DNA from: Burkholderia ubonensis subsp. mesacidophila
GTDB taxonomy: Bacteria > Pseudomonadota > Gammaproteobacteria > Burkholderiales > Burkholderiaceae
DNA length: 64,000 nt
Reading direction: 5' to 3'
Assembly: GCF_002097715.1 (NCBI RefSeq)
Contig: NZ_CP020737.1
Coordinates: forward strand, 1,240,001-1,304,000
Below the pieces are notes generated by a model. The model saw only the letters and a list, made by a program, of their open reading frames with translations, was not told the DNA's origin and ran no database searches. Shown piece after piece: positions 13,586 to 16,475 of the stretch; position 1 is the first letter of the stretch; every line of letters begins with the position of its first letter. A program made the translations under genes and the position numbers.

Positions 13586-14629
13586 GTGGTAACGGTGCTC
13601 CGTCCCGCAGGCGCCACCCGCACGACGCAGGTGGCGATCGTTGCATTGCCGCCCGTGTCGATGTCGGGCGTGGGTCCGATCGTCGACGCGCTGAATCTCG
13701 CGAACGAGATCGACGGGCGGTTGCTGTACCGCTGGCAGGTGTGTTCGTGGGACGGGCGGCCGGTGCCGCTCGCCGGCGGCGCGCAGTGGCATGCCGACGC
13801 GGCGTTCAACGACGCGATCGCGTGCGACTGGCTGATCGTCGTCAGCGAGCGGTTCCAGCAGTTCGCCGATTACCGGCTGTTTCTCGCGAGCCTCGCGCGG
13901 GTCGGGCAGCGCACGCCGCTCGTGACGGGCATCCATCATGGCGTGTGGTGGCTCGCGATGGCGGGGCAGTTGTCCGGCTACCGGGTGAGCGTGAACTGGG
14001 AGACGTACCAGCAGTTTGCCGAGCAGTTCGAGCGCTCGATCGTCACGCAGCAGATCTTCGAGATCGACCGGGACCGCGCGACGTGCGCGGGCGGGCAGGC
14101 GACGGTCGATTTCATGCTGGCGATGATCGGCCGTGAGCATGGGCCGGAACTGGCGGAAAGGATTGCCGATGCGCTCGGCGCGGGGACGTTGAGGAGTGGC
14201 GAGGAACGCCAGCGGATTCCGTTCGTCACTGCGCCCGGGGAGCGGCATCCTCGGTTGAACGATGCATTGCTGCTGATGGAAGCCAACATCGAAGATCCGT
14301 TGACGACGGATGAGATCGCCGGGCTGGTCGGCGTGTCGCGCCGACAATTGGAGCGGCTCTTTCGGCAGTATCTCGGGGCGATGCCCTCCAAGTATTACCT
14401 CAATCTCCGGTTGCTGAAGGCTCGCACGCAGCTGCAGCGGACCAGCAAGTCGGTTGTGCAAGTCAGTCTCGCATGCGGGTTTTCTTCTGCTGCGCATTTT
14501 TCCAACGCGTATCGCGAGCGGTTTGGCGTGACGCCGCGGGAGGATCGGCGCGCGTGGCTCGAGAAGCAGACGGGTGGCGGCGCCGAACCGCGGGCTGGGG
14601 CGCTCGTCGAGCGCGTGAGCAAGGACTGA
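13586..14629 (+). CDS. argR: GlxA/ArgR-type AraC-family transcriptional regulator
   Basis: Regulator of 347 residues with an N-terminal class-I glutamine-amidotransferase-like (DJ-1/PfpI fold) domain, residues about 15-190. A C-terminal AraC double helix-turn-helix follows, residues about 230-325, with VSRRQLERLFRQYLG and the second helix pair at SLACGFSSAAHFSNAYRERFG. This architecture is that of pseudomonad ArgR, the arginine-responsive activator of aot and aru genes. Its place between the transporter and the aru/ast operon supports that role. GTG 13586 is the start. The last third of the gene (from about 14150) has somewhat relaxed codon usage. Control of this particular ast operon is inferred. 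Confidence 0.85.
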   Translation: MVTVLRPAGATRTTQVAIVALPPVSMSGVGPIVDALNLANEIDGRLLYRWQVCSWDGRPVPLAGGAQWHADAAFNDAIACDWLIVVSERFQQFADYRLFLASLARVGQRTPLVTGIHHGVWWLAMAGQLSGYRVSVNWETYQQFAEQFERSIVTQQIFEIDRDRATCAGGQATVDFMLAMIGREHGPELAERIADALGAGTLRSGEERQRIPFVTAPGERHPRLNDALLLMEANIEDPLTTDEIAGLVGVSRRQLERLFRQYLGAMPSKYYLNLRLLKARTQLQRTSKSVVQVSLACGFSSAAHFSNAYRERFGVTPREDRRAWLEKQTGGGAEPRAGALVERVSKD

Positions 14630-14713
14630 GATTTTTTGTGTGGTCGGTCAGGGGTGATCGTGAAGCACCTGTGATCGTGTCGGTCTATTAGCGTCGCCCC
14701 TGCGCGGGGCGGC

Positions 14714-14749
14714 GGTTACTTTTCTTTGTCTTGCCAAAGAAAAGTAACC
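14714..14749. terminator. Left-arm hairpin of the inverted-repeat element
   Basis: GGTTACTTTTCTTTG (14714-14728) and CAAAGAAAAGTAACC (14735-14749) are perfectly complementary around a 6-base loop, TCTTGC. A stable hairpin just after the argR stop could end that transcript, though no pure T-tract follows. Confidence 0.6.
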
Positions 14750-14992
14750 AAAAGAAAGGCGCTCAAACCACCCATGCTTTCAGTGCGATCGGTTGGTGGA
14801 TTGTGCGGACCTTGCAGCCGAGCGCAGCGAGGATGGAACCGATGAGCGGTATACCACTCTGTTGGGTGGTGCGGCGGGTCAGATCGCTTGCTCGAACCAC
14901 TCCGTTGTCGAGACTGGCGCGGACACTTTTGTGCGATCCACTCTGACGACCACGGCACGGGAAGTCTTGCGTTTTCACAGCGCCTTTCTTTT

Positions 14993-15028
14993 GGTTACTT
15001 TTCTTTGGCAAGACAAAGAAAAGTGACC
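14993..15028. terminator. Right-arm hairpin of the inverted-repeat element
   Basis: GGTTACTTTTCTTTG (14993-15007), loop GCAAGA, then CAAAGAAAAGTGACC (15014-15028). One G-T wobble separates it from the left-arm hairpin. The loop is the reverse complement of the left loop, as expected for an inverted copy. Confidence 0.6.
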
Positions 15029-15160
15029 CCTGCCCCGGGGAGGGGCGACGCTAATGGACCGATCCGAAAACGGGATCCAGCGAAAGAGCCCGCGCACGCA
15101 AAAAACTGACCAAACCCGCCGGAGGCAAAAAAGCCCGGCAAAAGGGGTTCCGATAGAACC

Positions 15161-15242: not shown

Positions 15243-16475
15243 ATGACGAACCTGACCGTGAACCGCCAGACTTTCGACGAAGTGATGGTGCCGGTGTTTT
15301 CCCCCGCGCCGTTCGTGCCGGATCGCGGCGAAGGCTCGCGCGTGTGGGACACGGCGGGGCGCGAGTACGTGGATTTCGCATGCGGCATCGCCGTGACGTC
15401 GCTCGGCCACAGCCACCCGGAACTGCTGAAGGTGCTGGACGAGCAAAGCCGCAAGCTCTGGCACATCGGCAACGGCTACACGAACGAACCGGTGCTGCGT
15501 CTCGCCAAGCGCCTCGAATCGCTGACCTTCGCCGACCGCGCCTTCTTCGCGAACTCGGGCGCGGAAGCGAACGAAGCCGCACTGAAGCTCGCGCGCCGCG
15601 TCGCGTTCGAACGCCACGGCGCCGACAAATTCGAAATCGTGTCGTTCGTGCAATCGTTCCACGGCCGCACGTTCTTCACGGTCAGCGTCGGCGGCCAGCC
15701 GAAATACTCGGAAGGCTTCGGCCCGGTGCCCGAAGGCATCAAGCACCTGCCGTTCAATGACATCGAAGCCGCGAAGGCGGCGATCGGCCCGCAGACCTGC
15801 GCGGTGATCGTCGAGCCGGTGCAGGGCGAAGGCGGCGTGATCCCGGCCGATCCGGCCTTCCTGAAGGCGCTGCGCGAAGCGTGCGACGCGCACGGCGCAC
15901 TGCTGATCTTCGACGAAGTGCAGACGGGCGTCGGCCGCACCGGCCACTTCTACGCATACATGGACACCGGCGTCACGCCGGACATCCTGACGACCGCGAA
16001 GGCGCTCGGCAACGGCTTCCCGATCGGCGCGATGCTGACGACGAAAGAGCTCGCCGCGCACTTCAAGGTCGGCGTGCACGGCACGACCTACGGCGGCAAC
16101 CCGCTCGCGTCGGCGATTGCCGACAAGGTCGTCGAGCTGATCGGCGACCCGGCGCTGCTCGAAGGCGTGCGCGAACGCAGCGTGCGCCTGAAGGGCGCGC
16201 TCGAACGCATCAATGCCCGTCACGGCATCTTCAAGGAAGTGCGCGGCAAGGGCCTGCTGATCGGCGCGGAACTCACCGCCGCATTCGACGGCCGCGCGAA
16301 GGACTTCGTGACCGCAGCCGCCGAGCAGGGCCTGATCATGCTGATCGCCGGCCCGAGCGTGCTGCGCTTCGTGCCGTCGCTGGTGATCCCGTTCGACGCG
16401 CTCGACGAAGGCCTCGCGCGCTTCGAGAAGGCGGTCGAACAGGTGCTCGCCGCGCAGGAAGCCAACGCGCGCTGA
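15243..16475 (+). CDS. astC: Succinylornithine/acetylornithine aminotransferase
   Basis: Class-III PLP aminotransferase of 410 residues, first gene of the arginine succinyltransferase (AST) operon. AstC moves the amino group of N2-succinylornithine to 2-oxoglutarate, giving succinylglutamate semialdehyde. The PLP lysine is Lys253 in [19 protein letters not shown] (phosphate cup) and [13 protein letters not shown] (Asp on the pyridine nitrogen) are intact. RBS AAGGA lies just before the ATG. The enzyme often doubles as acetylornithine aminotransferase (ArgD), so a biosynthetic role is possible. In pseudomonads this gene is aruC. Confidence 0.93.

Follow-up and report, generated by a model that had tools for sequence, protein, structure and literature searches.

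What occupies the gap between a regulator gene and an aminotransferase gene in Burkholderia ubonensis subsp. mesacidophila? The window analysed here is a stretch of 64,000 nucleotides, and in this gap two inverted arms face each other. An earlier sequence-only reading described a 369-bp element between argR and the ast operon, and proposed that it could be MITE-like, a double terminator or an RNA-forming element. For its placement, Pfam confirms an AraC-family regulator upstream, which we take to fit an argR of the Pseudomonas type, and the gene downstream is putatively astC-like. We read the element as a non-autonomous mobile element with structured ends, and we think that it borrows its enzyme. 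That the window holds a decayed and fixed copy of a palindromic, non-coding mobile element with triple-helix pseudoknot ends has, in our judgement, somewhat better than an even chance of being right. The parts of the locus, in window coordinates, are:

13586-14629, plus strand: left neighbour, AraC-family regulator (Pfam HTH_18, HTH_AraC)
14613-14725, minus strand: match to Rfam RF02421, Bp1_684 (55.5 bits, gathering score 44)
14668-14763, minus strand: left arm, shortened, with outer tip, GC hairpin and triple-helix motif; inner part and loop deleted
14692-14714, plus strand: GC-rich outer hairpin in the left arm, resembling a terminator in the inward direction
14714-14762, minus strand: left triple-helix pseudoknot motif (predicted by motif search and fold), read outward
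14807-15074, plus strand: right arm, nearly complete by alignment with G062, with inner part, motif, GC hairpin and outer tip
14980-15028, plus strand: right triple-helix pseudoknot motif (predicted by motif search and alignment), read outward
14980-14984, plus strand: P1, whose last 3 nt can pair with the start of the loop (GCC with GGC)
14985-14992, plus strand: mirror tract Y3, TTTCTTTT, the proposed third strand
14993-15006, plus strand: GGTT-AC linker and base strand, then pyrimidine stem Y2 (TTTTCTTT)
15007-15014, plus strand: loop GGCAAGAC, with P1' at its start
15015-15028, plus strand: purine stem R (AAAGAAAA), GT and base strand GACC
15017-15108, plus strand: match to Rfam RF02421, Bp1_684 (45.2 bits, gathering score 44)
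15032-15046, plus strand: outer GC-rich hairpin of the right arm (fold)
15243-16475, plus strand: right neighbour, putative astC-like aminotransferase

The two arms (14668-14763 and 14979-15074) are identical as an inverted repeat at 85 of 96 positions. The 77-bp terminal inverted repeats described earlier are confirmed within them, 14687-14763 and 14979-15055 agreeing at 72 of 77 positions. Each arm has a hairpin with a 15-bp stem and a 6-nt loop. These hairpins had been called near-identical and perfect, which is exact for the one at 14714-14749, whereas the one at 14993-15028 has one mismatch. With up to two mismatches allowed, the hairpin arm occurs four times in the 64-kb window and in none of 100 shuffles. 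The G+C content is 0.56 for the 369-bp element. The core is of lower G+C, as had been noted (0.59 against 0.69 for the whole window), and it is also free of genes, as the 369 bp show just short overlapping ORFs. The small false frames expected of the arms are present on both strands between 14716 and 15190, where ORFs of 57-82 aa derive solely from the repeat. What did not stand is the core as a separate part, as 14807-14978 is the inner right arm and its left counterpart is deleted.

The same site carries a full palindromic element, typically 580-870 bp long and lying between the araC-family gene and astC, in much of Burkholderia. The copy count that had been suggested as a check gave element matches in 59 of 65 Burkholderia genomes among the matches listed, and at least 46 of the 65, counted from the matches listed, have two arms close together. 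An astC tree was built from 44 rows, one of 45 loci being dropped; arms and astC lie within one stretch in 34 of these 44 loci. In a separate set, 14 loci showed the regulator gene on the other side as well. Complete arms measure roughly 280-300 bp and are up to 98% identical inside one genome, and of 26 genomes measured, the 21 without cargo have loops of 77-369 bp. The window copy is an ordinary-looking relic of an unusual family. Judged by alignment, it is ~200 bp shorter than the complete copy of G062, its loop and most of its left inner arm are gone in comparison with its relatives, and 14807-15058 aligns at 90% with the right arm of G062.

Loci with and without the element were also compared, as the sequence-only reading had proposed, and empty sites were found. 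Among 20 genomes, three of whose ast loci (L158, L159, L164) began too near astC for judgement, 12 have a regulator-astC gap of 123-259 bp with no arm. Seven of the empty sites are in Burkholderia (G014, G015, G016, G027, G038, G042, G050), several of these lineages being basal in the genus, and five in outgroups (G763, G847 and G319 of genus g6; G755 and G799 of genus g3). Two of the 20 genomes show deletion scars: G047 (L156) retains just a perfect hairpin made from the two outer tips, as expected of a deletion across a palindrome, and G048 keeps one tip. One arm is left in G021, and both arms are left in G035 and G052. On the astC tree, the 8 empty rows require one change against the other labelled rows, with weak support (62/66). 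The arm-bearing G017 clusters with G038 and G042, both empty, and G016, likewise empty, sits among carriers. The element would have entered early in the genus and been lost later in some lineages, which is the simplest reading of this tree and not proof.

The hairpins noticed earlier are present, but they belong to a larger structure that had been missed, with a mirror third tract and a pseudoknot pairing. This end motif is ~50 nt long, lies near each outer edge of an intact element and faces outward. Read in that direction, it consists of P1, a pyrimidine tract (Y3), GNNN-AC, a pyrimidine stem (Y2), a loop, a purine stem (R) and GT-NNN. Hairpins were picked by stem, AC/GT foot, closing G-C and loop length alone, and the upstream tract was then examined. 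The regions fetched were part of the listed places, and ten of 80 (L431-L440) that were not stem-chosen were left out. The 75 records gave 73 hairpins once two reverse readings of a single hairpin were set aside, with near-identical copies within a genome still counted, and in 65 of these 73 Y3 is an exact mirror of Y2, 4 nt before AC. The exact mirrors are TTTTCTTT with TTTCTTTT (31), TTTCTTT with TTTCTTT (19), TTTCTTTT with TTTTCTTT (10) and TTCTCTTT with TTTCTCTT (5). Six of the others have one mismatch, one has two, and one (L365) is without the tract.

Co-variation was scored in an alignment of 39 distinct sequences from 22 genomes of 22 genera, all with an 8-nt stem, an 8-nt loop and at least 7 of 8 upstream pyrimidines. 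Parallel T.A or C.G pairing of the tract with R is found in 309 of 312 cells (shuffled mean 270.9, maximum 293). When the window is included (40 sequences), the three variable triple columns fit in 99.2% of cells against 83.1% when shuffled, and sliding these columns by 1-3 positions lowers the fit to 63-66%; the shuffles ignore relatedness, whereas the sliding control retains it. The stem, including three foot base pairs, is 98.8% paired. The P1-loop helix is paired in 89% of cells, with changes on both sides in 4 of 5 pairs, and the whole Watson-Crick structure has 100 double-change cells against 28.0 in shuffles. With the register left free, the P1-loop run has a mean length of 4.90 pairs, where shuffles reach 3.52 at most. 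In strict register, its mean is 2.84, with 1.66 as the shuffled maximum, in a mixed set that is larger and partly tract-selected; such pairing is absent in 43 of the 125 distinct combinations of this set, which counts against the pseudoknot. The window motifs keep the mirror exactly (8/8), three P1 pairs and the foot. As aligned sequences go, the end motif is shown to be kept by co-variation in three layers, namely a Watson-Crick stem, a Watson-Crick P1-loop pairing and a parallel mirror tract.

The motifs occur in characteristic pairs. Among 92 distinct neighbouring pairs within 1.5 kb, 87 are divergent (outward-facing), with a median spacing of 492 bp and a spacing of 200-800 bp in 84 of the 87. 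When the Burkholderia ast loci are excluded, 55 of 60 pairs are divergent. The two ends have different stem types in 28 of the 87 divergent units. Two of these 28, with stems over 9 nt, were left out of scoring, and in the other 26 units the tract is the mirror of its own stem in 50 of 52 cases and of the partner's stem in 0 of 52; the motif filter allowed up to two own-mirror mismatches, by which same-length partner mirrors differing by two could pass and those of other lengths could not. Homogenisation of the inverted repeats was considered as the cause of the mirror and was rejected on this result. A coding origin of the arms was rejected as well. One T gained or lost shifts the frame in both tracts together, hence conserved peptides do not explain the mirror.

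A parallel third strand needs just such a mirror tract. The P1-loop pairing in turn puts that strand at the top of the stem, and from the two features together we infer an H-type pseudoknot containing a pyrimidine triple helix. Once single-stranded, the end would fold so that loop 1 occupies the major groove beside the stem and forms T.A-T and C+.G-C triples. The third loop is short, with 2-4 nt left depending on the P1 pairs counted, and at this length the complete stem and the P1-loop helix may be mutually exclusive. ViennaRNA, which models neither triples nor pseudoknots, gives a plain hairpin of -20 kcal/mol.

Such a fold could act as RNA. Transcripts leaving the core would then end in a triple-helix pseudoknot whose role is to protect the RNA or to sequester a partner, and dispersal would come about by occasional copying. 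Pyrimidine triple-helix pseudoknots serve as stability elements of eukaryotic RNAs. In the window, Bp1_684 matches both arms on the outward strand above the Rfam gathering threshold, and this sRNA candidate is listed as validated by RT-PCR in B. pseudomallei (Table 3, PMC3521395). According to the main text of PMC4666352, RNA forms pyrimidine triplexes and not purine ones. The base (foot) helix tolerates G-U and not A-C, with 10 against 1 distinct combinations, which favours RNA on this strand, but in the P1 helix this bias is reversed (4 G-U against 10 A-C). Moreover, by crude ORF calls, the units and single motifs have no consistent orientation to neighbouring genes, and the window region has no sigma-70-type promoter-like site. 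We regard a function as RNA as unlikely, though not negligibly so.

The orientation of neighbouring genes also bears on termination. A pair of transcription terminators would insulate the regulator gene from the ast operon, and a GC-rich stem followed by a T-rich tract is indeed read inward from the regulator at 14692-14714. However, the 3 terminator-like sites stand against an average of 1.2 (sd 1.3) in shuffles, termination gives no reason to expect the mirror tract or the P1 pairing, and 5 of 34 units with both neighbours called sit between convergent genes (a crude count, overlapping loci included). The double terminator proposed earlier is weakened to one terminator-like stem, with no preference for convergent genes elsewhere, and we hold it to be very improbable.

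Copies beyond the ast locus speak to movement. The 7.84-Mb genome has 3 hairpins in total, the ast-locus pair and one lone 81-bp copy of the end motif at G000:C1:2482819-2482899 (L051, 3020-3100). Judged from translations, the lone copy lies between aceF/pdhB-like (E2) and lpdA-like (E3) pyruvate dehydrogenase genes, on the strand opposite to them; a figure legend in PMC3521395 likewise has pdhB and lpdA among the neighbours of Bp1_Cand684. One or two extra copies are found in each of 15 matching genomes of 18, with the position fixed in the window genome alone. Unlike the window genome, G763, G847 and G935 have many dispersed copies. There are 16 match places in G763 and 14 in G847, with common outer sequence, some of them single-armed or at contig ends, and motif search finds no intact motif in 8 of the 28 element-matching loci of these two genomes. 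The copy at L137 has empty sites in related genomes (~225 bp in G784 against ~1,027 bp in L137). Megaplasmids of Paraburkholderia and Caballeronia carry many partial matches, with at least 39 places in one record.

The hairpin is found still further afield. The matches listed include Silvimonas, Rhodoferax, Dokdonella, Halopseudomonas, Actinobacillus, Aggregatibacter, Mannheimia and others, and some metagenome bins among them carry implausible names. The stem and loop-length pattern occurs in at least 26 of 369 genomes of the class, and in 10 of 369 with a shorter stem; a reversed control pattern gave none among the matches listed. An inverted self-match is present in 16 of 21 cores compared (in one it is merely 32 nt), and the longest stop-free frames of the 21 cores span 40-148 codons. 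Judged by these matches, the element family is spread patchily over Beta- and Gammaproteobacteria and is dispersed.

An Rfam scan of 20 loci with other copies gave no family that covers the motif and two hits elsewhere. A SAH riboswitch match (RF01057) lies at L201 6995-7063, within ~200 bp of the Silvimonas terrae element and outside the unit. A Bacillaceae-1 match (39.8 bits, gathering score 35) lies at L195 7012-7074 in the core of the Dokdonella-bin element and may be due to chance. In G976 (L457), the sequence outside one end repeats the outer-end sequence of other ends, as if in tandem. A phage origin was considered and rejected, the window element having no match in 50,697 phage records; yet the full motif is present on some virus-labelled contigs. 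Scanning viral contigs for the stem alone brought up 12 and 8 stretches, and the full motif was found in L297, L300, L304, L311 and L312.

An intact copy has two long inverted arms around a short loop, with an outward-facing motif near each outer edge. The folded ends would be the feature by which a trans-acting enzyme recognises the element during movement or copying. Dispersal, common ends, empty sites and, by crude ORF calls, indifference to gene direction favour a mobile element that is recognised at these ends. Against the mobile-element reading stand the failure to find an enzyme or a target duplication, the few copies in the window genome and the 8 loci of G763 and G847 with no intact motif. 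Specifically, a target-site duplication, which had been named as a check, was not seen by eye in the element ends compared. The enzyme search covered RAYT-like transposases. Four of them had no tblastn match in the collected element loci, and neither E. coli RayT nor a divergent relative had a match on Burkholderiaceae plasmids, although plasmids of this kind carry up to 39 or more element places. No link to RAYT or TIRYT genes emerged, and the end motif is absent from the five loci scanned with or near such genes (L509-L513). The MITE-like nature suggested at the outset is supported in part by empty sites in relatives and dispersed copies in other genera, but it is held back by the single locus and lone hairpin here and by the lack of a transposase tied to the element.

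The loop would have gained or lost gene cassettes several times, as inferred from the tree. In 8 of 65 Burkholderia genomes among the matches listed, the arms enclose a gene for Tae4, an amidase and type VI effector, always in the same direction, and no inverted cargo was seen in these 8 genomes. The 7 loops read (L035-L041) have a PAAR-like ORF and a third small ORF beside Tae4. Pfam confirms PAAR and Tae4 in the cassette of G033 and gives no family match for its third small ORF. The loop of G011 holds DUF1120 fimbria-like genes and that of G023 insertion-sequence transposases. Tae4 carriers are scattered on the astC tree. Set against the remaining labelled rows they require 4 changes, of which well-supported branches force at least 3, in a count that leaves out 23 unlabelled rows. 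Further Tae4 genes of the genus sit outside the ast locus. A search of empty loops for cassette remnants gave just short 18-48 nt matches to cassettes.

The arms, for their part, resemble each other within a genome. Both arms were obtained from 26 of 28 genomes, and in these 26 the identity of left and right arm is 0.930 (0.784-0.979) within a genome, while arms of different genomes reach 0.874-0.881. In 30 of 52 cases an arm is closer to its own partner than to any other arm. In these alignments, the likeness points to conversion between arms. Arm likeness and scattered cassette carriers would also follow if the element had a role as DNA without moving itself. The palindrome and its H-DNA ends would then stall replication or form a recombination hot spot, by which the arms stay alike and the loop swaps cassettes. 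Another intrastrand triplex repeat has been tied to genome instability in PMC4666352. This explanation, however, accounts neither for the dispersed copies with common ends in G763, G847 and G935 nor for the conservation, rather than loss, of the three layers, and we consider it decidedly unlikely.

We return to the mobile element. In its fullest form, the proposal is a mobile family whose triple-helix pseudoknot ends are recognised by shape, whose sequence can drift if the layers change together, and whose centre is a landing site for cassettes such as type VI effector pairs. We put this full form a little short of an even chance. To our knowledge, natural triple helices in bacteria have so far mostly been inferred from composition. 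A mirror tract that changes with its stem across stem types and many genera is evolutionary evidence of a selected triple, and the family supplies short natural sequences for testing the triple-helix fold. The ast site of Burkholderia offers a place where effector cassettes come and go inside a palindrome. The elements could be mistaken for small ORFs in annotation. From what the comparisons indicate, repeated elements of this little-known kind occur in many bacteria, and their ends retain the letters needed for a triple-helix fold.

No description of the end motif was found in the open-licence literature, supplements excluded, and several known systems share some of its features. The BoxC, PIT and TMECO repeats have, like the element, a pyrimidine, purine and mirror block order and are dispersed in proteobacteria (main text of PMC4666352). 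As in PIT-type repeats, a third block of the element mirrors its purine stem block and the linkers are short, but unlike the PIT repeats described there it has a P1-loop pairing and occurs in divergent pairs of ends. The TMECO consensus is G/C-rich (CCCTCNCCC...) in that text, whereas the element has A/T-rich tracts (TTTTCTTT and kin) that do not match it. The main text of PMC4666352 is without Burkholderia, pseudoknots or TTTTCTTT. For Bp1_684 (RF02421), a Burkholderia sRNA candidate, both arms exceed the gathering score and the matches start inside the purine strand; the triple helix and the pairing of the two arms both fall outside the model.

RUP, NEMIS, ERIC and Nezha, as listed among MITEs in PMC3733652, are non-coding, dispersed and intergenic and have inverted ends. 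The element is likewise non-coding with inverted ends and has empty sites in relatives at the ast locus and the L137 locus. It differs from those MITEs in being longer (arms of ~200-320 bp in Burkholderiaceae), in its structured ends and in that no target duplication was found. TIRtrons, in the account given in PMC3733652, have tyrosine transposase genes between long inverted repeats, and they share with the element long inverted repeats that form repeat families. The TIRtron octamer GGGGWSAS (PMC3733652) is present at the outer edge of the right motif of the window (GGGGTCAC); with a final C, it is present on just 12 of 242 distinct motif ends, and tblastn with the four RAYT-like proteins brought up no such transposase in the element loci. 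REP and REPIN sequences are palindromes of 20-40 nt next to a GTAG or CGTC tag and come with a RAYT gene, and relatives of RAYT were not found by tblastn in the element loci.

H-type pseudoknots with a pyrimidine triple helix occur in telomerase RNA and others. In these telomerase-type pseudoknots, as in the element, loop 1 is a parallel mirror of the stem, which is what a major-groove triple calls for. The element has the corresponding features, with a co-varying P1-loop helix and stem and with loop 1 parallel to the purine strand. It differs in that the predicted fold is the repeated terminal motif of a bacterial element and not a unique RNA.
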